Source of the DNA: Arenicola marina
Taxonomy: Eukaryota > Annelida > Polychaeta > Arenicolidae
DNA: 64,000 nt
Reading direction: 5' to 3'
Assembly: GCA_964019135.1 (NCBI GenBank)
Contig: OZ025257.1
Coordinates: forward strand, 26,706,352 to 26,770,351
A program made the position numbers and the translations under genes. Positions 1,586 to 59,035 of the stretch are shown here, one piece after another; the first letter of the stretch is position 1; each line of letters opens with the position of its first letter. The notes below the pieces were generated by a model. That model saw only the letters and a list, made by a program, of their open reading frames with translations, was not told where the DNA came from and searched no databases.

Positions 1586-3161
1586 TTACGTCTTCGGCCT
1601 TAAAGGTGAGTATTCCGCCGGCCGATTGTAACTGCCCCGGGAGTGGACCAGAGGGGAGGGCATCGGGGAGGGTCTGGGGCTCGGGGTAAGGCGTGTGCTC
1701 TTGCCGTTGCGGACCGTCAGTAGCTTGGTTGCGTTGCCATAGGAGGCGGCTGAGTGGTTGGGGCTGGCGGCGGCGCGGGAACGCCGAAGGAGCAGACGAC
1801 ACAACTCCTGCCTGAACTTCTGCCCCGCGGCGCAGTACAGGTAGAAGTTCATGGAGTGGTTGGCGTACATCAACAGCTGGGTGACGGTTCTCAGCAGCAT
1901 GCCCTGGGCCAGCAGGTGGTTCTGCTCGTACGGGGGCAGCGAGCTGAGCTTGGAGTTCCAGTAGGTCGTCAGGATTAGGATGATGTTCATCGGCAGCGTG
2001 GTGATCAGAAAGGCGAAGGATATTGTCAACAGCATCACCGTCAGACGTATGTTACTCTCCTGGTGGTGATGGGCCGAGGAGGAGCCTCCACCCCCTCCTC
2101 CTCCCCCTCCCCCGGCGGTAGCACCCCCGCCCCCTCCCGCCCCGGACCCTCCGCCTGTCTTGCGGGTGTCTCCCCCGGGCGCCGCGCCGGCTCGCAGGGA
2201 CTTGGTCTCGGCGGGGACGTGCTGAGAGAGCTTGCTGCGGTAGGCCTTGGCGCGCATCACCTCGGAGATGATGCGGCCGTTGAGGACCATGAGGACGACG
2301 AAGGGCAGGAAGGAGTAGATGAAGGCGTCCACCCATTGCCAGTACTCCAGCAGCTGCTCCAACCCCCGCGTCGCGTCGCACTGGCTCCGCTCCACCATCG
2401 TTCCATTGCCCACCTCCCCTCCGGAGGTTCCATCCCCGTTGCCTAGCGACGATGACAGCCCCGACGACGACGACGATGCAGTATCCAGCGGCGTCGGGTT
2501 CCGCCTCGTGGTGATGGCCGAGGTGAAGAAGAAGTGAAAGTTAATGGCAAAGATGACGACGCCGATGGAGATGATGACCTTGGCGGCCTTGGAGGAGTTG
2601 CACATGGCCGGTGCCTGGAGCGGGTGGCACACGGCGATGTAGCGTTCCACGGTCACGGCGATGATGAGCCAGACGGAGTAATCACTGACCGTGTAGCCCA
2701 GCACCGTGATGGGCTTACACATCCAGTCCGCCTGGTCCCGGATGTCGTATCCGGTCAGCGTCCCGATCCAGAGCCTGAGCAGGCCGACGTGGAGCACCAG
2801 GGTATCCGTGATGGAGAGCACGGCCAGGTAGAGGTAGGTCGACACTCGGCGCATAGTCCGCCGCGTCAGAATGATGAAGGCCAGCACGTTGCCCACCGTG
2901 CCGAAAACCAGCAGGAAGGGCGGCATGTACGTCATCAGCACCTTGTGGTCCTGGTACTCGCGGTAGTGTAGCAGCTCTTCCTCCGTCCCCACCGCCACGG
3001 GGTCCGTCGCCGCGGACCCGGACAGCCGGTCCACGCAGGCCCACACTTCGGCCTTGCTGGACTGGGGCCCCCGGGGTGGGCAGAGCAGGTCCTGGTCTTC
3101 AGGTGCCAGTCCCGCCCACCACCCCCAGAGCTCCGTGTAGTTGGTGTCCCCCTGAGTCGTC
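1586..3161 (-). CDS. Class A GPCR, neuropeptide-receptor type (large 3' exon; 5' exon missing)
   Basis: Seven-transmembrane receptor of the rhodopsin class, expected in the plasma membrane and coupled to G proteins. Numbering starts at the GTG at 3046 (486 codons to the TAA). TM1 is about 40-62 with GN at 52-53; TM2 72-95 with Asp81; Cys110 and Cys223 can form the TM3-ECL2 disulfide; TM3 ends in ERY at 134-136 followed by the IAVCHP motif; TM4 155-177; TM5 238-262 with Pro248; TM6 332-358 with Pro352; TM7 382-407. CWxP reads TTLP, NPxxY reads NFYLY, and TM4 lacks the usual Trp, as in FMRFamide-receptor-like and GPR139/142-like receptors. ICL3 is glycine-rich (about 297-321); ECL2 is serine-rich with an NGT glycosylation site. 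The frame stays open upstream of 3046 with no ATG until a stop near 3200. A pyrimidine tract ending in CAG at 3162-3164 is a good splice acceptor, so the start codon is probably in an earlier exon. The ligand cannot be told. Confidence 0.9.
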
Positions 3162-3185
3162 CTGCTCCCCAGCAGGCAACCGGCA
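3162..3185 (-). promoter_or_regulatory. Candidate 3' splice site of the GPCR exon
   Basis: Read on the minus strand, a TC-rich tract is followed by GGGGAGCAG just before the exon. Using it gives an N-terminus containing an NYT glycosylation site, typical of receptor ectodomains. A second CAG about nine bases further in is an alternative. The upstream donor exon was not found in this window. Confidence 0.45.
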
Positions 3186-3199
3186 GGAGAGAAGAGAGA

Positions 3200-3604
3200 A
3201 CTTTAATTATCTCATTAAGCTATGGTATCATAAAATAAAACAAAGTTGAAGCATATTCATGTTTTCGAACGAAAAAAATAGCGATAAACATGAAACGTAA
3301 TTGAGGTATGGATTTAGTTTTATTCATGCCCATTTTCTTTCTTTTTAGCCACCAAATGTCGTGAACTCATCCATTTATTGCTGTAATCTATCTATCGATT
3401 ATATCCTGGGTTTGGACTGAATCGTCTTCAAACAATAACAGAAACAGTTTTGAAATTATTTATAGCTAAGCAGACAAATGAGCAACCGCTTTCTTTTTAC
3501 AGCAATGGGTCAAGCTGACACCATTGTTCAACTGCTGCAACCAAGGATATCTGACACTGTCGTTTGTACTGAAGTTGGCAGCTTTCGATTACAGTTAGTG
3601 TTTA
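3200..3604. other. Non-coding, probable GPCR intron start
   Basis: AT-rich sequence just upstream of the receptor exon on the minus strand. No exon, promoter or repeat is recognised here. Confidence 0.4.
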
Positions 3605-49375: not shown

Positions 49376-49850
49376 CACGGACTCCTGCCTCTCGCACTCA
49401 CATCCACCAGGTTCCTGCACTCATCCCTCCCACCGCCTTCACCCTTTCCCGTCAGAATCATACATTCATGCCCCCCCTCCCCCCCCCCCCTCCCCCGCCT
49501 ATCGACATCCACCGTGCATGGGCGTGCACAGGGAGCACGTGCCCCCACTTTCAGCCCCTAAGGTATAGCTGTGCCCCGTGTGCAACACATTATTGTGCCC
49601 CCTCCCCTATTTCAATAATTCCTGCACACGCCCTAGCGGCACCAATTTCATGGGCTCCTCCCCCTCCCCCCCCCCCCCGGCCCACCCACACCAACCAGGG
49701 TTAATGTAATGGACTCCTCTCTGCTCATCCCCCACACCCATCCACCCGACTTCTGCAGCCCCCCAGCCCTTCGACACTCAGACTCCTGCACTACTGGCCC
49801 GCCCCCCGGCCCACCGGCACCCACCAAACTTATGCCTTCCTGTTTTTCTT
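49376..49850. repeat. C-rich decayed repeat with ACTCCTGC motifs
   Basis: GGACTCCT(G/C) and CACTCATCCCCC motifs recur irregularly in pyrimidine-rich DNA with C runs at 49478-49492 and 49665-49680. Proline-rich frames here are artefacts. Confidence 0.55.
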
Positions 49851-49964
49851 TCGTACCCTCTATTGAACTAACGACAAGCAGCTATCGTTCACCAACTTTT
49901 ATGGAAATGTGGCATGTCCGAACCTCTACAATGTTCAAGTTACGGACTTCCCAATGCCAACGGT

Positions 49965-50140
49965 CATTTGATTAAAGGAAAAACGAAAAAGTTTTAAAGT
50001 TTAATATTTGTCCTAAAGAGACTAGTACAAATGTTCCACTGATTGGGGACACAACTTTAATATGGATCATTTCTTGGCGTGTAGGAAGAAGTTTCGCGCA
50101 AAATTACGTCATAGTTCATGCGGTCTTATGTTCAAACTAA
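49965..50140. repeat. Dispersed repeat D2, copy 2
   Basis: Homologue of 47365-47575. It is followed by TGGACATTGTTTTCCCACTT, which also occurs near 49341, so the repeat may have been rearranged locally. Confidence 0.8.
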
Positions 50141-50615
50141 ATGGACATTGTTTTCCCACTTTCGTTTTCTCAATCATCGTCAACCTTCAAAGATGACCCA
50201 GTTGCTTGCTAGCCCCACCCCTTTCCGCTACCCCAGACACAGACTCATGCTCCCTCCACCCAACAGATTCATGCTTTTAGCTGGGAAGGAGTGGTGAGAT
50301 TGAGCCATGACCGAGCCCGACCGAGTCATTACAGCGCTGTTAGAGGGCGTGAGACGGACTTGACGTGGCCGGTGTGATCCTTTCAGCGTAGGAAGGGGGT
50401 TGCGGAGTCCAGGTCGCACTAGTCCTATTCCCCCCTCAGTGAACCAGTTAGCAACTTTCAATGCCACGCAGGCACCGCGGTCGCTCAGCATAGACAGACG
50501 GCAAAGAGACGGGCATACAACCACATAACCACACAACCATATGAGCCCATTGGGAAAACCCGTCCGCGGGACCTCTTCTTCTCCCTGCTTGTGTCGTCGG
50601 TCTCCTCTGAAATGT
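50141..50615. other. Non-coding, nothing recognised
   Basis: No supported feature. Confidence 0.4.
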
Positions 50616-50619
50616 TTCG

Positions 50620-51285
50620 CATCCGTCTCCCGGTTGGTGTCGTCCGTCTCCCGAGAACTCGTCTTCTTCCGGCTTGTGTCGTCCGTCCCCCGGGAACTCG
50701 TCTTCTTCCGCCTGGTGTCGTCCGTCTTCCGGCTGGTGTCGTCCGTCTTCCGGGAACTCGTCTTCTTCCGCCTGGTGTCGTCCGTCTTCCGGCTGGTGTC
50801 GTCCGTCTTCCGGCTGGTGTCGTCCGTCCCCCGGGAACTCGTCTTCTTCCGGCTTGTGTCGTCCGCCCCCCGGGAACTCGTCTTCTTCCGCCTGGTGTCG
50901 TCCGTCTTCCGGCTGGTGTCGTCCGTCTCCCGGTTGGTGTCGTCCGTCTCCCGGTTGGTGTCGTCCGTCTCCCGAGAACTCGTCTTCTTCCGGCTTGTGT
51001 CGTCCGCCCCCCGGGAACTCGTCTTCTTCCGCCTGGTGTCGTCCGTCTTCCGGTTGGTGTCGTCCGTCTCCCGAGAACTCGTCTTCTTCCGGCTTGTGGC
51101 GTCCGTCCCCCGGGAACTCGTCTTCTTCCGTCTGGGGTCGTCCGTCTTCCGGCTTGTGACGTCCGTCTTCCGGCTGGTGCCGTCCGTCTCCCGGGAACTC
51201 GTCTTCTTCCGGCTGGTGTCGTCCGTCTCCCGGGAACGCGTCTTCTTCTGGTTAGTGTCTTGTGTCCGCGGGAACTCTTCTTTCT
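50620..51285. repeat. Minisatellite with 21-bp and 39-bp alternating units
   Basis: Basic unit GGTGTCGTCCGTCTTCCGGC plus one base; many copies carry an 18-bp insert GGGAACTCGTCTTCTTCC, giving 39 bp. Both lengths are multiples of three, so frames of 238-249 codons remain open. Codes for VVRLPAG-type repeats only; not a gene. Confidence 0.95.
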
Positions 51286-51351: not shown

Positions 51352-51840
51352 CTTGGTCTGAATGAAGAATGAATGAAGAGGCACCTCTTTGGTGAACGCT
51401 TAGTCAATGATGATTTGAATAAATATGACCCTAGACAGGGGTAGGAATTGAACCCGCAACCTACTGGTTTAAAGTCGAGTGCGTTACCTCTCGACCACGG
51501 CGGCTTCTGATGGAGAGTGCAGTGGGTGGAATATATATGCTCATCTCACCTAGTCTCGCTAGTTGCCACATAAAGTGGAGGGAAAAAAATTATTGCAGAG
51601 AACCTACATGTGATAACCGTACATAGAATGCATGTCCAATGATGCTCGTACGGAAGGAAATACTGTGGCAAACAGACATGTGTATATGCAACTCGTGCCT
51701 AAATTTTACGTCACTAACGTAGTTACCCGCCTTGGTCGAGGGGTTGAGAGCTCGACTGCAGATCGACCTGCGGCTGGTTCAAACCCACCTATCGCCATAT
51801 TTTTTGTCTTTGTGCCAGTGGCAGCACATAAGGGCTAGCA
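51352..51840. mobile_element. Left arm of a large inverted repeat with two divergent tRNA-like units
   Basis: Matches the reverse complement of 53570-54081 over its length with indels. It holds a tRNA-like unit on minus (51436-51504, with GTGGTCGAGAGGTAACGCAC and GCGGGTTCAATTCC) and one on plus (51727-51787, with TTGGTCGAGGGG and GGCTGGTTCAAACCC). Both have A- and B-box-like motifs, and they point away from each other. This looks like a head-to-head dimer of a tRNA-derived SINE. Confidence 0.7.
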
Positions 51841-52545
51841 TCAATATAAATTTATTATTTAAATTATAGACATTTTAGGCCTTTTAGTTTTGCATTTGTG
51901 AATTTTATAGCAACAACGTTATTGTTTAATTGAAAGATAATGTATTGTTTGTTTGTACTCGTTGCTATACCTCCGGTGTATATGTGAATATGTTATAATG
52001 TGTTATAATTATTATTATATTGCTGAGGGACTGAAAACGGCTGAAAGGAAACAATGTTGACGTGATGAGATATGACAGTGAAGTCAAAATTCATCAGGCC
52101 CCATTTCTGCCTTGCCTTTTCGTCGTTGGCCCAGGAAATCGATTATTGGGTGAGTGTAACCGCGGGAGTCTGACATAGACACCCTTCACACACTCTCTTG
52201 CTAGCCCGTGTTGTGCATTTCTACTTCTGCAGAGTTGTTCATTTCGCTCGTTGGTGGCAGGGACGAGATGTTCAAACGTAGGCGGGGCAGCGATGCTTGT
52301 TGACTTGCCTGTTCGAGATGCGATATTCATTGCTATGGCATGCCCTATCATCCTCAATTATTTATTTGCACATATCTCATATTAATTCCACATATGGCTA
52401 TTAAAATAAAGAAGGCATGAATTTACTCTCTGGCTATCAAAATAAAGAATACATTTACTATTTATTGTTGAGTTGCGTTAATACCATGTATGCAAACAAT
52501 GTAGGCATTTTTTTCATAGCCTATCAATCTTCTTTTGGCGCGCGT
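51841..52545. other. Spacer between the left arm and the central array
   Basis: AT-rich, with a minus-strand frame (52094-52357) of unknown nature. No domain is recognised. Confidence 0.4.
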
Positions 52546-52549
52546 CACT

Positions 52550-53270
52550 AGTTGTGTCCCCGGGGACTCTTCTTCCGGCTTGTGTCCCCGGGGACTCTCT
52601 TATGGCTTGTGTCGCCGGGGACTCTCTTATGGCTTGTGTTTCCGGAGACTCTCTTCTGGCTTGTGTCCCCGGGGACTCTCTTATGGCTTGTGTCTCTGGG
52701 GACTCTCTTATGGCTTGTGTCTCCAGGGACTCTCTTATGGTTTGTGTCCCCGGGGACTCTGTTACGGCTTGTGTCGCCGGGGACTCTCTTATGGCTTGTG
52801 TCCCCGGGGACTCTTTTATGACTTGTGTCTCTGGGGACTCTCTTATGGCTTGTGTCCCCTGGGACTCTCTTATGGCTTGTGTCCGCTGGGACTCTCTTAT
52901 GGCTTGTGTCCCCGGGGACTCTCTTATGGTTTGTGTCTCCGGGGACTCTCTTATGGCTTGTGTCGCCGGGGACTCTCTTATGGCTTGTGTCCCCGGGGAC
53001 TCTCTTATGGCTTGTGTCTCTGGGGACTCTCTTATGGCTTGTGTCCCCTGGGACTCTCTTATGGCTTGTGTCCGCTGGGACTCTCTTATGGCTTGTGTCC
53101 CCGGGGACTCTCTTATGGTTTGTGTCTCCGGGGACTCTCTTATGGCTTGTGTCCCCGGGGACTCTCTTATGGCTTGTGTCCCCGGGGATTTTACTTCCGG
53201 TTTGTGTCCCCGGGGACTCTCTTATGGCTTGTGTCTCCGGAGACTCTCTTCTGGCTTGTGCCCCATGGAC
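52550..53270. repeat. Minisatellite, 27-bp unit, about 26 copies, with a 7-unit higher order
   Basis: Unit GGGGACTCTCTTATGGCTTG plus TGTCCCC. The block of variants starting near 52825 recurs 189 bp (exactly seven units) later, near 53014. The first unit contains TTCTTCCGGCTTGTGTC, also found in the array at 50620-51285, so the two arrays share ancestry. Frames of up to 269 codons are by-products of the 27-bp period. Confidence 0.95.
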
Positions 53271-53274
53271 TCTT

Positions 53275-53569
53275 ATTCCTATTCATGTTGCTATGACGTA
53301 TCAGGACCTTATAGCGAAAGCTTGGTTTTAAATGTCAAAAAGCGGTTCTTAAAGTGTCAATAACCTACCTTGTAGTGAAGACCGGTGACCGTAGTTCTCG
53401 AATTGTGACCTGTATCAAGCGAATAAACAAACTGGCAAACAAACATACATACATACAAACAAATTTACCAACCGAACATAGTACAATACTGACAGAATTT
53501 TTTAACTTCTCTCAGTAACAATACATTATGCTACACTTACAACAATAACGTTGTAACAGTTGTTATAAT
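53275..53569. other. Spacer with CAAA/CATA short repeats
   Basis: ACATACATACATACAAACAAA near 53440; otherwise nothing. Confidence 0.5.
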
Positions 53570-54081
53570 AATGCACAAGTACAACGCAAATGTGTAGTTG
53601 ATGGATATGGTACCCCAGGAACAAAAAAACATTTTGATAAAAAGGGGGATTGAACCAGCCATTGCTTGGTTGGTTATGGTCTGCAGTCGAGCTCGCTACC
53701 TCTCAACCACGGCGGCCAATGTGTAAAGTGAAAGTTATGCACTAATATGAGATACAAAGTTCGTTCAGCCACAGTATTAAAAAATCATTCTATCTGAGCA
53801 TCATTGGACATTATAAATATACAGTTAGCGCAACCTTTTTTTTCTCCAAAGTTTGTTGAACTAAGCGGGATGGGGGTGAGATGACCATATATATTCCACC
53901 CACCGCACTCTCTATCGAAAGTCGCCGTGGTCGAGAGACAAACTTTATCGACTTTAAACCAGAAGGTTGCGGGTTCAAATCCCACCCTGTCTAGCTTCAT
54001 TTTGTTTTCGTCCAGCCATACTTGGTCTCACTGACTACGCACTTGCGTTCACCAGCGAGGTGCTCGTTCACTCAGACCAAG
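53570..54081. mobile_element. Right arm of the large inverted repeat with two divergent tRNA-like units
   Basis: Mirror partner of 51352-51840. It holds a tRNA-like unit on minus (53645-53716, GCCGTGGTTGAGAGGTAGCG and GGCTGGTTCAATCCC) and one on plus (53921-53982, GTCGCCGTGGTCGAGAGAC and GCGGGTTCAAATCCC). The outermost CAGACCAAG equals the reverse complement of the left outer end. The arms are diverged (roughly 70-75 percent by eye), so the structure is old. Confidence 0.7.
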
Positions 54082-54084
54082 AGA

Positions 54085-55240
54085 CCAAAGGGTGGTCCAA
54101 TCCCTCCCACCCCGACCTGGAACACTCCCATCGACAACGACCTCCAGATCACCCCATTCCACCCCGACCTGGACTACTCAGTCCGACCCCGAATCGGACC
54201 ACTGGCTCCTACCTTAACCCGGAGCACCGACCTCAACCCGGGCACTCCCTCCCATCTCGACCCAGACCAATCCCTCCCACCTCGACCCAGGCCACTCCCA
54301 CCGACCCCAACCCATACCAATCCCCCCATCCCCACCTCGACCCAGGCCACTCCCACCGACCCCAACCCAGACCACTACCACCGATCCCGACCCGGACCAC
54401 TCCCACCGTCCCCGACCCAGACAACTCCCTCCCTTCCCCACCCGGCACCCACCGACCCTGATCCGGTCCACTCCCACCATCCATGACCCGGAATACTCCG
54501 CCCGACCCCGACCCAGACCACTCCCATACCGAACCTGTCCACTCCCACCGACCCCGACCCCGACCCCGACCCGGGCCACGGCCTCCCACCCCTATCCGGG
54601 CCACTCCCTTCCACTTCGACCCGGACCACTCCCACTGACCCGGGACCACTCCCACTGACCCCGACCCCGACCCCGACCCGAACGACTGCCTCCCACTCCG
54701 ACCCGGACCAGTCTCACCGACCTCGACCCGGACACTCCCTCCCATCTCGACCCAGACCTCTACCTCCCACCACGGACCACTCTCACCGACCTCGACCCGG
54801 GTCACTCCCACCGACCCCAACCCAGACCAATCCCTCCCACCTCGACCCTGACAACTCGCATCCACCCGGCCTTCGACCACCCCAACTCACCTCGATCGAG
54901 ACCAATCCCATCCAGCCAGACATGATCCACTCACTCCCACCCCAACTTGGACCATTGCCAGCGACCCCGACCCGGATCACTGCCTCCCACCCCGACCCGG
55001 ACCACTCCTACCGACCCCGACCCGGACCAGTCCCACCTACCTCGACCGGGACCAGTCCCATCCGCCCAGACCCGGACGAATCCTAACCATCGCTCCGGGA
55101 CCATTCCTACCCGCCTCGATCGTACCCACACCCTCCCATCCCGACCGGGACCGCTCTCACATACGCCGACAAGGACCCCTCTGACGCTCCACTCCGACCC
55201 ACTTCTACCCACCCCGAACATGACCACTCACTCCCGGCGC
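54085..55240. repeat. Long C-rich minisatellite, ACCCCGACCCGGACCACTCC-type units
   Basis: More than 40 variable 18-30 bp units built from CCGACCC, CGGACCACTCCCAC and CCTCCCACC modules. Strongly pyrimidine- and C-biased on plus. Minus-strand frames are glycine/serine/valine repeats and not genes. Confidence 0.9.
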
Positions 55241-55384
55241 GCCTTGGACCACACCCTTCATGCGACCTAGACAACTCCTTATGTACGTAGGCTATTTGTC
55301 CCAATTTCCAATGCAGGTATCAACTTACTGGCCTCCCTGCTCTTTCGTGTAAGTAAAAATAAATCCCTCCCTGTCAGCTGAATT

Positions 55385-55627
55385 CCCCTCGGACAACTGT
55401 CCCCGGACAAATTCCCCCCAAGACAATACTCCCTCGGTCAGCCCCATGCCCACTTCCCAACCAAGACAATGCTCCCTCTGTCAGCCCCATGCCCCCTCTC
55501 CCCCGTGCCAATACTAGTTCGGTCAGCCCCATGCCCCCATCCACCCCCCTCTCCCCCCCCAAGACAATACACTCTCGGTCAGCCCCATGCCCTAGCTCCC
55601 CTAAGACAATACTTCCTCGGTCAGCCT
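55385..55627. repeat. Minisatellite, about 50-bp unit x 5
   Basis: Units carry AAGACAATACTCCCTCGGTC then AGCCCCATGCCC and a variable C-rich spacer. Confidence 0.85.
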
Positions 55628-55785
55628 GCGCTAGCAGCGTGGTCTAACGGCTTAAGCTTGTGGCCTAGACCCGTAAGTTCGAAACGGCCGGGGCTAAATA
55701 TTTCGCCATAAAATAGGACATAGCACGGAGCGGGGCGAAATATTTGGCCCCGGCCGTTTCAAACTTACGGGCCTGGACTAGTGGC
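55628..55785. repeat. tRNA-like foldback hairpin
   Basis: Left arm 55665-55707 and right arm 55734-55781 are near-perfect inverted copies about 43-48 bp long (only a few mismatches and one small insert) with a 26-nt loop. Upstream, GTGGTCTAACGGCTTAAGC and GTAAGTTCGAAACGG resemble A and B boxes. The left arm includes the B-box end, so this may be a foldback duplication of a tRNA-like element end. Confidence 0.75.
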
Positions 55786-55849
55786 CTGGGCAAAGCGGGC
55801 CTTGGCATTTTGCAATATGAAGGACACGGCCATCAAAAATACTGAATAC

Positions 55850-56270
55850 TGAGTATCTTGAAAACAAGAGGGATAGAACCATTATTTTGATACCTGTGCA
55901 TAGGTTTTCGGGGTCGATGAATTGGAAACAAAATCATTATTGAGTAGCCTGTTGCAACGCATCCGGACAAGACCACGAGAAATACAAAATATTTTGCAAA
56001 TTAACACTGACGATTTTTATATTTATGTATGGGTTTTTGGGATCGCTGAATAAAGAAATGTTATTGTGTAAGTTACGACAACGCATCTGCCATTTCCAAG
56101 ATGGCGGATACGGCCTGCAACAGTACACAACATCTTCAAAACCAAGAGGGATTACTCTATTTAAGTCTATGTATTGGTTTTCTCGATCAAAGAATTCAAC
56201 AAATTGTGTCTTCAAGGGTAAGGAGCCCTCAGGCTGCCATAATGGCGGCTATTTTATTTCAACAATGACA
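55850..56270. repeat. Diverged tandem repeat, about 145-bp unit x 3
   Basis: Units share a (G)GTTTTCGGGATCGNTGAATT-like block, an AACGCATC or equivalent block, and CAAGATGGCGGATACGGCC or ATAATGGCGGC-type motifs. Old and eroded. Confidence 0.6.
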
Positions 56271-56309
56271 CACAATATCTAGAAATCTGAAAGCTGTAGG
56301 AGCGTCATT

Positions 56310-56714
56310 GTGAGGATCTCCATATGTACCATGGGCGCTGATCTAAACAGATCTAGCCTACAGATAACGAGATCTGGGATCAATTTATCTAGTAACCTTT
56401 GCTCGCAAGCATGTCATAGTCGCTGGGACCATGCTTCGCATGAAAGACATCGGTCGAGAATACTACGGTTTGTGATCAAAAGTATTGTTTGTAGACGGCA
56501 TTGGACAATTTACACCAAACACACATCCTGGGCGTACGTGTTCAGGACTCCATCGAAGTTGAACAATGCAACAAACACAGGAGCTCGATCAAAAACGCTT
56601 TACATTCAAAAGCTTTACATTGCGTGTCAACTTCGCAACGGAAACCTGAAAGACTTTCTCTCTCACGAGAATCATCCGTGTCCGCCTTCACTACGAGTTG
56701 ATGTAGTGGGTTGA
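56310..56714 (+). CDS. Unrecognised 134-codon open frame, possibly repeat-derived
   Basis: The C-terminal part, about residues 107-130, has LRNGNLKDFLSHENHPCPPS. It reminds me of a segment (DFFSHENQxCPPxLS) seen in multicopy predicted proteins of invertebrate genomes. That is memory, not a search. The upstream part looks like ordinary translated DNA. If real it is probably a fragment of a repetitive gene or element. Confidence 0.2.
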   Translation: MRISICTMGADLNRSSLQITRSGINLSSNLCSQACHSRWDHASHERHRSRILRFVIKSIVCRRHWTIYTKHTSWAYVFRTPSKLNNATNTGARSKTLYIQKLYIACQLRNGNLKDFLSHENHPCPPSLRVDVVG

Positions 56715-56831
56715 ATACAAGTAAAACGCCATCTCAAGCAATTGGGGAAACTTAGGCTATAGTTGGGGTATTTATACAGATGAACAAGTCATCAACAATG
56801 ATTTTCAGGCAGCTTCATATCCCGAAAAGCC

Positions 56832-57224
56832 ATGGATAGACAGCAAAATAACAGTTTTATCCTAAAATACTGTAGGATTTTCCGCCATTTAAAAAAATTG
56901 TCCGCCATAGCCGTCAAGGTAATGGAGATAATGGAACTTCGTCCAATTTCAAGTACTTCCGTTTCAGTTTCCTTCCCCAAGGTAGAAGATGTTGACGTGT
57001 ACAAAATACTTCGGGCTAGAACATGGCGAAAAGCAAAGCACAATTATTTTTTCATGGCAACGGAACATTTGCCCAATGATAAAGTATTCAGATTCGGGCT
57101 AATTTGGAAAATTCGTCAGAAATCGGGAATACTAACTAAAACAGGGATTTTTAAGGCTAATGGCGGGGAACATAGATTCCAGATAACTGGGGAAAGAAAA
57201 ATACACTTGCCGTCTTTCTTTTGA
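56832..57224 (+). CDS. Unrecognised 130-codon open frame
   Basis: Basic, with no signal peptide, membrane segment or known motif. Composition is not low-complexity. No upstream promoter or splice logic is seen. It may be chance or a decayed element. Confidence 0.15.
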   Translation: MDRQQNNSFILKYCRIFRHLKKLSAIAVKVMEIMELRPISSTSVSVSFPKVEDVDVYKILRARTWRKAKHNYFFMATEHLPNDKVFRFGLIWKIRQKSGILTKTGIFKANGGEHRFQITGERKIHLPSFF

Positions 57225-59035
57225 CGACATTGGCACTTGCAAATCTTCCTGTTTTTAATATATCCCTAATGCTGAAGTATAGCATTTTTTGGTCGTTTCG
57301 TCAAGCCGTATCTGACATGTTGATGCTCATACCGGCGAACTGGTCAACGTTTTGGGTTGCGGGGCATAACGTTTGCGTCTAATTATTTGCACGTTGCCGT
57401 GCGTCATGCCATGACGTCTCCATGACGTGATGACGTCATAATTTTATAACGTCAATTACTCAGTTATTATACCCCATAACGACTTTCGGTTTATTTGACG
57501 TCGTACCTTATATCCACGAGATAAATCTTGCCGTGTGTATCTTCTTTTGCAGTACCGAAATTTGCGACAAAACAGACGTCAAAATTTACGTTACCCGACG
57601 AAATTGTGAAATCATTTCCTTTTCACCTATTTAGCCGCTAGGTAATATCATTATAAGTTTATAAGTAGCTAACATGAAAAGTTAGAAGCCAATTTGTTTC
57701 AACTGGTAAGCGTCAGTGACGTGATGGGTGCCGATTGGCATCGATGTGACAGGAATAGTTGACGTCAACCTCGCGTTAGGTGGCGTTTTTAAATTTGAAG
57801 GGTGATAACTCGTGTAATATTTGAGCTATGGAACCCATTTTGGCATGAAGCTGAAGACAAATGTAGACTTGTAAACCCTTACAGAATTGCCTTGGGACGC
57901 TTAGTTTGGCGGCTAGAGGTGCACCCCCCCCCCCCCCATACCACCCCCTTGCTGAGGCTCCCATTATGAGAACGGCGATATCGACCGGCACGGCTTCGGG
58001 TTGCGATGGCCGCCGTTCGCTTAATAGCGACGCTAGAGAGTCGGGACTGGTTTCAAAATACGGGCAAACGTCGACTTGGGTGAGGATTCCGCGTTTGCCT
58101 TTAGCCTAGTGCACTTAGGCTCGGCGCTAGAGGGTTCCGTACTATAGCAATGATGAGTCTGAGAACAGGCATTAGGGCGTCACCAAGCACACTTAGCAAG
58201 ACGGGATTTGAACGTATTCACTTAAAATGGTGCCCTCTATCTGGAAAAACAGCCCGCGTTGAACAGCAGCCGTTAGATTGTTTTCACCCAGCAACGACAT
58301 CCTAGGGGTCCAATTTGGGCTAAATTGCGCTTTGAGCGAGCCCACTACAGCCATCAGTGGGCAAGTTGGGCTCGAACGCCTTCAGATATCGGCTGCCAAA
58401 TTCACCAAGAGTGGCGGAATTGCCATATGTATCATAAAACCAATACGTTCCACTCTTACTTCCCGTTCAAATAGTGACGGTACTAAAAGCACGGTTTAAC
58501 CTATACAATTATATTAGGATCGGTTCATAAAGTGCGTACATGGTTCAAAATAGTGCCTGCAGCCCCCAATTTGCACGTCTAACGCGCTTGTTAGCCCACA
58601 TTGTTCGCTGAAGGAGCTGTTTAACCCAATTTGCCTGCTTAAGGCCTCATGTAACCAGCATGAGGCAAGAATAGATCATAGTATATGTGTTTCTGCATGT
58701 CATGGCCTGTACCACAGTGGCGGCGCCTAAGTGGCACCACAGACGTGTGTGTCAAAGTTAACGTCAGTACCTCAGCCTATGGCTGTCTTGTTTAGATGTT
58801 AGCCTCTTTCTCAGTCTGTTTCTGTTGCAGCCTCTGTCCTCCTTTCTTTCTAATTATATATTTCCTCTCTCTCTCAATCGTCATTCCGTCCATTCTCTGG
58901 TAGTGAAAATCCGAAAATGCGTTCATACAGCGAGTTGCCGCGAACAATACTCCTTCCGAACTGATTTTGGCGGTGAAGACGGTGGCATCCAGTTGCTGCT
59001 TTGAACCAAGCTCATTTCTAAAATATAAGTCCTTG
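57225..59035. other. Non-coding; CRE-like cluster at 57408-57440
   Basis: CATGACGTCTCCATGACGTG followed by ATGACGTCATAA has three near-CRE sites in about 30 bp. Poly-C at 57924-57937. The remainder shows no supported gene. Confidence 0.4.

Follow-up and report, generated by a model that had tools for sequence, protein, structure and literature searches.

Two divergent tRNA-like units in a repeat family of Arenicola marina, possibly the inner domain of a foldback-like DNA element

The window analysed here, a stretch of 64 kb from the genome of Arenicola marina, contains two inverted arms, each with two tRNA-like units (heads), which face one another across a minisatellite. A sequence-only reading of this 2.7-kb structure likened it to a foldback element built from SINE heads and suggested that it could be a new composite transposon or the scar of hairpin-mediated duplication. 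The locus raises the question of which of these descriptions applies, and whether the palindrome or the single arm is the repeated entity.

The arms at 51352..51840 and 53570..54081 are inverted copies around a 27-bp minisatellite, about 71% alike, and their proposed coordinates proved to be exact; identity is 70.6% over 350 bp, and an alignment of the left against the right arm with looser scoring gave 66% over 498 columns. The left arm (forward strand, L lineage) begins with CTTGGTCTGA at 51352, followed by head 1, a spacer and head 2. Head 1 (51436..51510, reverse strand) reads outward, its A box starting from 51497 and its B box from 51454, and a TATA-like box about 27–34 nt upstream of it (51531..51538, reverse strand) belongs to a 42-nt block with 7.7% pairwise mismatch. 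Head 2 (51725..51806, forward strand) reads inward and is immediately followed by a run of six T. The right arm (reverse strand, R lineage) is inverted relative to the left one and ends with TCAGACCAAG at 54081. Its head 2 lies at 53625..53716 on the reverse strand (A box from 53709, B box from 53656, T5 run), and its outward-reading head 1, at 53918..53996 on the forward strand, has a degraded A box and agrees with its left-arm counterpart at 62 of 74 positions.

The left arm is continued by a sequence termed mL (51841..52375, forward strand), which adjoins the arm in many copies and gave 83–93% identity in the genome search (best 40 of 102 candidates, so that counts are lower bounds), with a drop to 76–77% at loci L036 and L053. 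The minisatellite proper (52552..53273, forward strand; 26.7 copies of the 27-bp unit according to Tandem Repeats Finder) comes after mL in copies in C11 too. The remainder of the interior, mR (53276..53523, reverse strand), is the end of another repeat, TE-X, which ends in CTGACAGAAG; the idea that the inner minisatellite and mR form a fixed unit was rejected on this ground. TE-X pieces, with the ends CTGACAGAAG..CTTCTGTCAG, occur in the window at 53276–53523 and 57049–57604. TE-X interrupts mL in the array copies read in C1, C2 and C17, and in the array unit of L039 the interrupting copy is 3.6 kb long.

On the outside, the left arm is preceded by a minisatellite of 37–39 bp units (TCTTCCGGCTGGTGTCGTC..; Lsat, 50570..51282, forward strand), the usual outer neighbour of arms of the L lineage, and the end of the right arm is adjoined by a C-rich minisatellite (Rsat, 54085..55077, forward strand). 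Further left lies a partial terminal repeat of the A type (49849..50188, forward strand), 79% identical to the A-type repeat that bounds the element at locus L025; no mirrored partner of it was found in the right flank searched, and a second type of terminal block, Z, has no match within the 64-kb window. The arms alone are mirrored at this locus, the outer repeats and flanks are not. Tandem Repeats Finder masked 12.7% of the window, many of the arrays being G+C-rich minisatellites. To the right of the locus, a near-perfect 91-bp hairpin at 55675–55765 looks like a palindromic repeat, and its Rfam match to mir-1295 (30.9 bits) is far under the gathering score of 100 for that family. Among ten open reading frames of the window submitted to Pfam, one of 538 amino acids (1586–3202, reverse strand) encodes a rhodopsin-type seven-transmembrane domain (PF00001, E 1.7e-27), that is, a G protein-coupled receptor.

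The proposal of four tRNA-like heads is borne out by their promoter boxes. When the whole window was searched for strict pairs with A-box and B-box starts 31–71 nt apart, exactly three were found, and all of them are heads (starts of A and B boxes: 51733/51776 on the forward strand, 51497/51454 and 53709/53656 on the reverse strand); the fourth, head 1 of the right arm, fails the strict A box by having GAGAGAC instead of GAGAGG and is recognised by its 62 of 74 positions shared with its counterpart. An internal Pol III promoter in strict form in three of four heads compares with an expected 0.025 pairs per window, the mean of 40 first-order Markov windows (maximum 1). The tRNA models with which the heads were to be checked gave no cloverleaf. 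ARAGORN predicted not a single tRNA, whether in the window or across 30 loci, no Rfam family reached its gathering score in 14 loci, and a tRNA search with Rfam was negative both for 8 kb of sequence (E ≤ 1) and for the left arm (451 bp, E ≤ 10). Folding of two units was no better than that of shuffled sequences (z of −0.06 and −1.39). The heads are tRNA-like in their promoter boxes only, and the possibility of true tRNA genes was rejected, since neither ARAGORN nor the Rfam covariance models recognised a cloverleaf.

The two heads differ in what follows them. A TTTT run lies 36–40 nt past the core of head 2 in 25 of 27 units; after head 1 it is absent within 60 nt in all 33 matched units, and the closest one lies at 65 nt. 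(One window match of the head 1 expression, at 53678, is in fact head 2 of the right arm and was excluded from the 33.) In the left arm of the window the first TTTT is 907 nt beyond the core searched, and the sequence downstream of head 1 often runs for hundreds of bases through minisatellite without one; since T is rare in the minisatellite on the strand concerned, composition alone may account for the scarcity. Head 1 of the right arm, which is outside the 33 matched units, is followed by T-runs.

A search of the host genome (867 Mb in 762 contigs) showed that the divergent pair of heads is a genuine repeat family. The mitochondrial COX1 gene of the host reads well with genetic code 5 (13 TGA codons, and AAA at places usually occupied by lysine), which speaks against an echinoderm. 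The left arm gave at least 42 matches, its own place included (best 40 of 123 candidates), and it is 83–89% identical over at least 400 bp to at least 39 other places, many of which are near-identical array copies. The right arm reached elsewhere at most 73% over about 400 bp and at most 78% over 250 bp (best 40 of 86 candidates). By these figures the arms are old, and unequal in their divergence from other copies. A 39-mer of head 1 had 70 matches at up to three mismatches, 40 of them perfect, and none in the reversed control; these fall into 32 loci, spread over 15 contigs. For head 2, a 38-mer had 57 matches, again with none in the control. In 54 of the 70 head 1 matches, head 2 follows downstream in one and the same geometry at 247–407 bp (53 at 247–282 bp, one at 407 bp), and in several of the ten loci read among the 16 unpaired matches, the usual spacer adjoins a head 2 that is altered or cut short. 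The sequence-only reading had allowed that copies elsewhere might be single units, which would make the pair a nest of insertions peculiar to this locus; given this degree of pairing, that objection does not apply.

The palindrome itself is another matter. Most head 1 matches are single arms or members of direct arrays, the latter on C1, C2, C11 and C17, and this dominance, the unmirrored flanks and the existence of two arm lineages speak against the four-headed 2.7-kb structure as the mobile unit. In a midpoint-rooted tree of 30 arms, the right arm together with L043 and L044 splits from the other 27 with support of 100/98, and the left arm is joined with L027 (86/90), which implies that the two arms differed before they met at the window locus. 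Duplication of one arm through a hairpin on the spot, one of the origins first suggested, would account for the inverted arrangement of two arms from the same family; it is highly improbable here, because the tree separates the arms and because they are only about 71% alike when the left one is 83–89% like copies elsewhere.

The same data permit the reading that two repeat copies of different lineages came to face each other by chance, so that the palindrome has no meaning at the level of an element. The split in the tree (100/98), the unmirrored outer flanks, the fragment of a foreign repeat in the interior and the prevalence of single arms and direct arrays all fit such a nest. Nevertheless, we regard it as rather unlikely, since about 16 kb away, at L027, an L arm in inverted orientation is joined directly to the same R end and Rsat, since inward-facing head 1 pairs are found in C11 and C6 as well, and since outer repeats are mirrored at other arm loci. 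The junction of the R arm end with Rsat recurs at L027 (C10:26776663) and L043 (C18:19096546; best 40 of 82 candidates), and a C-rich array like Rsat also lies alongside L053, an arm of the group that does not include the right arm. From the junction at L027 it follows that L and R ends had been joined before the copies at L027 and at the window locus parted.

Inward-facing pairs were counted among head 1 matches at up to three mismatches, to which head 1 of the right arm does not belong, so that palindromes with a diverged arm of that kind would be missed. Within this scope other four-head palindromes were found in C11 only, three times, with a spacing of 2788–2789 bp and both heads in both arms, and two inward-facing arms lie at 568 bp in C6. 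We interpret the three in C11 as copies that go back to a single event. Over 418 bp, the two facing arms read in C11 share 88.5% identity, and the tree places both in one clade, in keeping with a local inversion, or hairpin duplication, at that place. The palindrome thus has at least two origins, which differ in kind; nothing among the loci examined marks it as a fixed unit, and the 2.7-kb structure is probably one particular, relict arrangement.

The Z block has a sharp end, as seen from the clustering of alignment starts (23 of 40 scored alignments at query positions 27–29 and 32 of 40 at 23–30, from the best 40 of 60 candidates). Leaving out the place of the query itself, eight of 39 scored copies lie within 3.5 kb of an arm, at seven other arm loci, and all eight face inward. 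Two arm loci have Z on both sides: C9:31306772-31308804, with inward blocks on both flanks, and L033, with inverted pairs of 105 bp at 88.6% and 38 bp at 94.7% and a third copy further right. Conversely, 31 of the 40 scored Z matches have no head 1 match within 3.5 kb, and 24 of the 32 arm loci have no scored Z match among the best 40 of 60 candidates. The element at L025 (C10:28054360-28061143) has inverted ends of 484 bp at 87.8% and, inside them, an inverted mL of 316 bp at 90.2%; counts from the search with its A-type end (best 40 of 442 candidates) are lower bounds. End types are mixed, comprising A, Z and a third type, the right end at the C13 locus, which is matched in inverted orientation left of L041. 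Long terminal inverted repeats are present at L025, L033 and C9, and at the window locus it is the arms alone that are inverted. Directly beside the L025 element lies a second inverted-repeat structure (C10:28049644-28054269, L059/L025) with arms 66–77% alike and internal minisatellites, parts of whose sequence are also contained in the window at 55361–56888, right of the locus.

The minisatellites take part in the layering. Of 17 oriented 10-kb loci, counting that of the window, 15 have forward Lsat immediately to the left of the arm, the two exceptions being L036, with none, and L031, with a single unit 1 kb away. Inverted Lsat occurs to the right at L033, L034, L035, L053 and L055 (a single unit in L034, L035 and L055), so that in four of these forward Lsat on the left is mirrored by inverted Lsat on the right, and L053 has it on the right only. 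Direct Lsat is present to the right of L032, L035, L038, L039 and L040, instead or as well. A foldback-like context of inverted repeats and minisatellites is thereby supported at several arm loci; the SINE part of the proposal is not supported, as no 3′ tail was seen and the sequence upstream of head 1 travels with it. No target-site duplication was found at C9:31306772-31308804 or C7:20086871-20089650, where the termini are uncertain and the test is weak; three Z ends share sequence beyond CCCACTGGG, which makes the true terminus uncertain. For these reasons the loci are called built like foldback elements and are not equated with them. Inspection by eye of up to six stop-to-stop reading frames (at least 110 amino acids) per locus recognised no transposase in 17 loci, and only among those of L033 and L034 were there frames that looked like pieces of reverse-transcribing elements. 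A Helitron-like origin was also considered, as an assumption of ours, given the minisatellites and terminal hairpins.

Taken together, we consider it slightly more likely than not (about 0.55) that a foldback-like DNA repeat family, in which no genes were recognised, carries the arm as its inner domain or cargo. The inverted ends of such an element would consist, from the outside inward, of a unique terminal block (Z or A), one or more minisatellite arrays (Rsat, Lsat), the arm and mL, the arm contributing two divergent Pol III-type units, head 1 directed outward and head 2 inward. The units were probably multiplied at the DNA level, as their upstream flanks travel with them, and mobilisation would depend on a transposase acting in trans. 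Most copies are single-armed and may have lost the second arm. At the window locus an L and an R arm, each with its usual outer minisatellite, would then face each other across the minisatellite and a TE-X fragment. Against this explanation stand the two elements without a target-site duplication, the many Z blocks and arms that lie apart from each other, the unmirrored outer repeats at the window locus, the weaker constraint on head 1 of the right arm, and also the mixed ends, the direct Lsat copies and the arrays in C1, C2, C11 and C17, which amplification and exchange through duplication and satellite recombination would explain.

If retroposition had instead spread the arm as a SINE, or as a back-to-back pair of SINEs, and the inverted order were incidental, then the A and B boxes, the T-run after head 2 and the related tRNA-like units elsewhere would be as expected. 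Retroposition of a Pol III transcript would not, however, carry upstream sequence, and here the spacer, the TATA block and mL are kept with the heads: the aligned copies have in common the block and the spacer that lie upstream of the two heads, and do not start at a head. The spacing of the pair in 54 of 70 matches and the lack of TTTT within 60 nt of head 1 in 33 of 33 units point in the same direction. Such an origin of the arm is very unlikely. Casual inspection of the arm alignment showed neither an A-rich or simple-repeat 3′ tail nor a target-site duplication.

The origin of the heads is a separate question. They align with each other, and the 26-nt half with the A box has 189 genome matches at up to three mismatches (control 0). 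Among the matches listed, those with no or one mismatch lead to arm loci, and many with two or three lie outside them, some dispersed and some in tandem arrays. Both of the two dispersed relatives that could be read are tRNA-like units outside the family that share the A box; the B box is clean and correctly spaced in one of them and degraded in the other. This makes a SINE-like or tRNA-like origin plausible. A common ancestor of this kind is likely from these resemblances, and the arm would probably have taken its units from a dispersed tRNA-like (SINE-like) head family. Tandem arrays with a tRNA-like head in each unit were noted at C6:13309931-13319604, C7:6291745-6293408 and C3:46373656-46374829, with spacings in multiples of 48, 78 and about 72 bp, and an array of tRNA genes, one per about 1.34 kb, at C3:29958398-30002839.

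Head 1 has diverged less than the rest of the arm. In 15 copies found by the whole-arm search, one per array, its pairwise mismatch is 2.4% (0.024) compared with 11.8% (0.118) elsewhere, and 64 of 75 of its columns are invariant as against 191 of 352. It is the 75-nt window of lowest mismatch in the whole arm, including the stretch between the boxes. Left out of this count were the array duplicates L039, L040 and L028b, the right arm with L043 and L044, and L046–L054, which had been chosen through the head 1 pattern; in a 27-row alignment that includes rows left out, head 1 shows 5.0% and other regions 9.5–23.8% mismatch. L044, which was found through the right arm, has kept 71 of 75 positions of head 1 of the left arm and 190 of 263 elsewhere (p = 1.6e-5), and in single comparisons with the left arm four of 13 are not significant (p 0.053–0.24). 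Head 2 is barely better kept than the spacer (9.2% versus 12.8% mismatch), and head 1 of the right arm is less constrained (62 of 74 against the left arm; p = 0.27 against L044). Low divergence amid otherwise drifting copies calls for a function, and suggests that head 1 is still in use or under constraint.

Such conservation over the whole length of head 1, together with the direct arrays in C1, C2, C11 and C17, might also be expected of host Pol III genes for small RNAs amplified with minisatellite spacers. This we hold to be doubtful, because there is neither a cloverleaf nor an Rfam family, folding is no better than in shuffled sequences, and the copies are spread over 15 contigs, some of them inside inverted repeats. 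Returning to the arm as the inner domain of a foldback-like family, it is tempting to speculate, as a tentative and less probable extension, that the divergent Pol III pair is itself selected: head 2 would yield a short terminated RNA, and head 1, with its 75 nt kept and no near terminator in L-type arms, would be read outward through the element's own GA-rich minisatellite layer. Either the transcript or the TFIIIC/Pol III complex on it would serve the element (in mobilisation, replication or as a boundary) or the host. If so, tRNA-like Pol III units would be carried and conserved in a DNA-type inverted-repeat element and not as SINEs, foldback elements would have a transcribed inner domain, and minisatellite RNA made by Pol III is predicted, which can be tested.

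Galileo and TU are foldback elements, and with such elements in general the arm family shares inverted termini with tandem repeats and the modularity of its copies; it also offers an instance in which minisatellites form structural layers within inverted repeats. To our knowledge, an inner domain with divergent and constrained units of the Pol III type is not a familiar foldback feature. The Twin SINEs of mosquitoes likewise have two tRNA-related units per repeat; theirs point in the same direction, and those of the arm family diverge, about 220 bp apart. In titles and the openings of abstracts of the open-licence literature no description of tRNA-like pairs in a foldback element was found, a result that does not prove that none exists.

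The description of Tetris, a foldback transposon of Drosophila virilis, also lists Drosophila FB and sea urchin elements as foldback elements (PMC4079207). According to the parts of that description available to us, Tetris resembles the arm family in its layered long terminal inverted repeats, made up of a flanking block, a domain of tandem repeats in variable copy number and an inner domain, and in its variable middle, the lack of conserved open reading frames, the rearranged copies and tandem repeats that also form satellite-like arrays (PMC4079207). It differs in having target-site duplications of 8–10 bp, none having been found at the two elements tested here, and the arm family, unlike Tetris as described there, carries tRNA-like units and has two or more types each of outer block and outer minisatellite (PMC4079207). 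MER6, a MITE, is described as carrying a conserved V domain derived from SINEs, and its abstract mentions no tRNA-like head, divergent pair or minisatellite layer; the likeness lies in the spread of a SINE-derived conserved block as the cargo of an inverted-repeat DNA element (PMC6887750).
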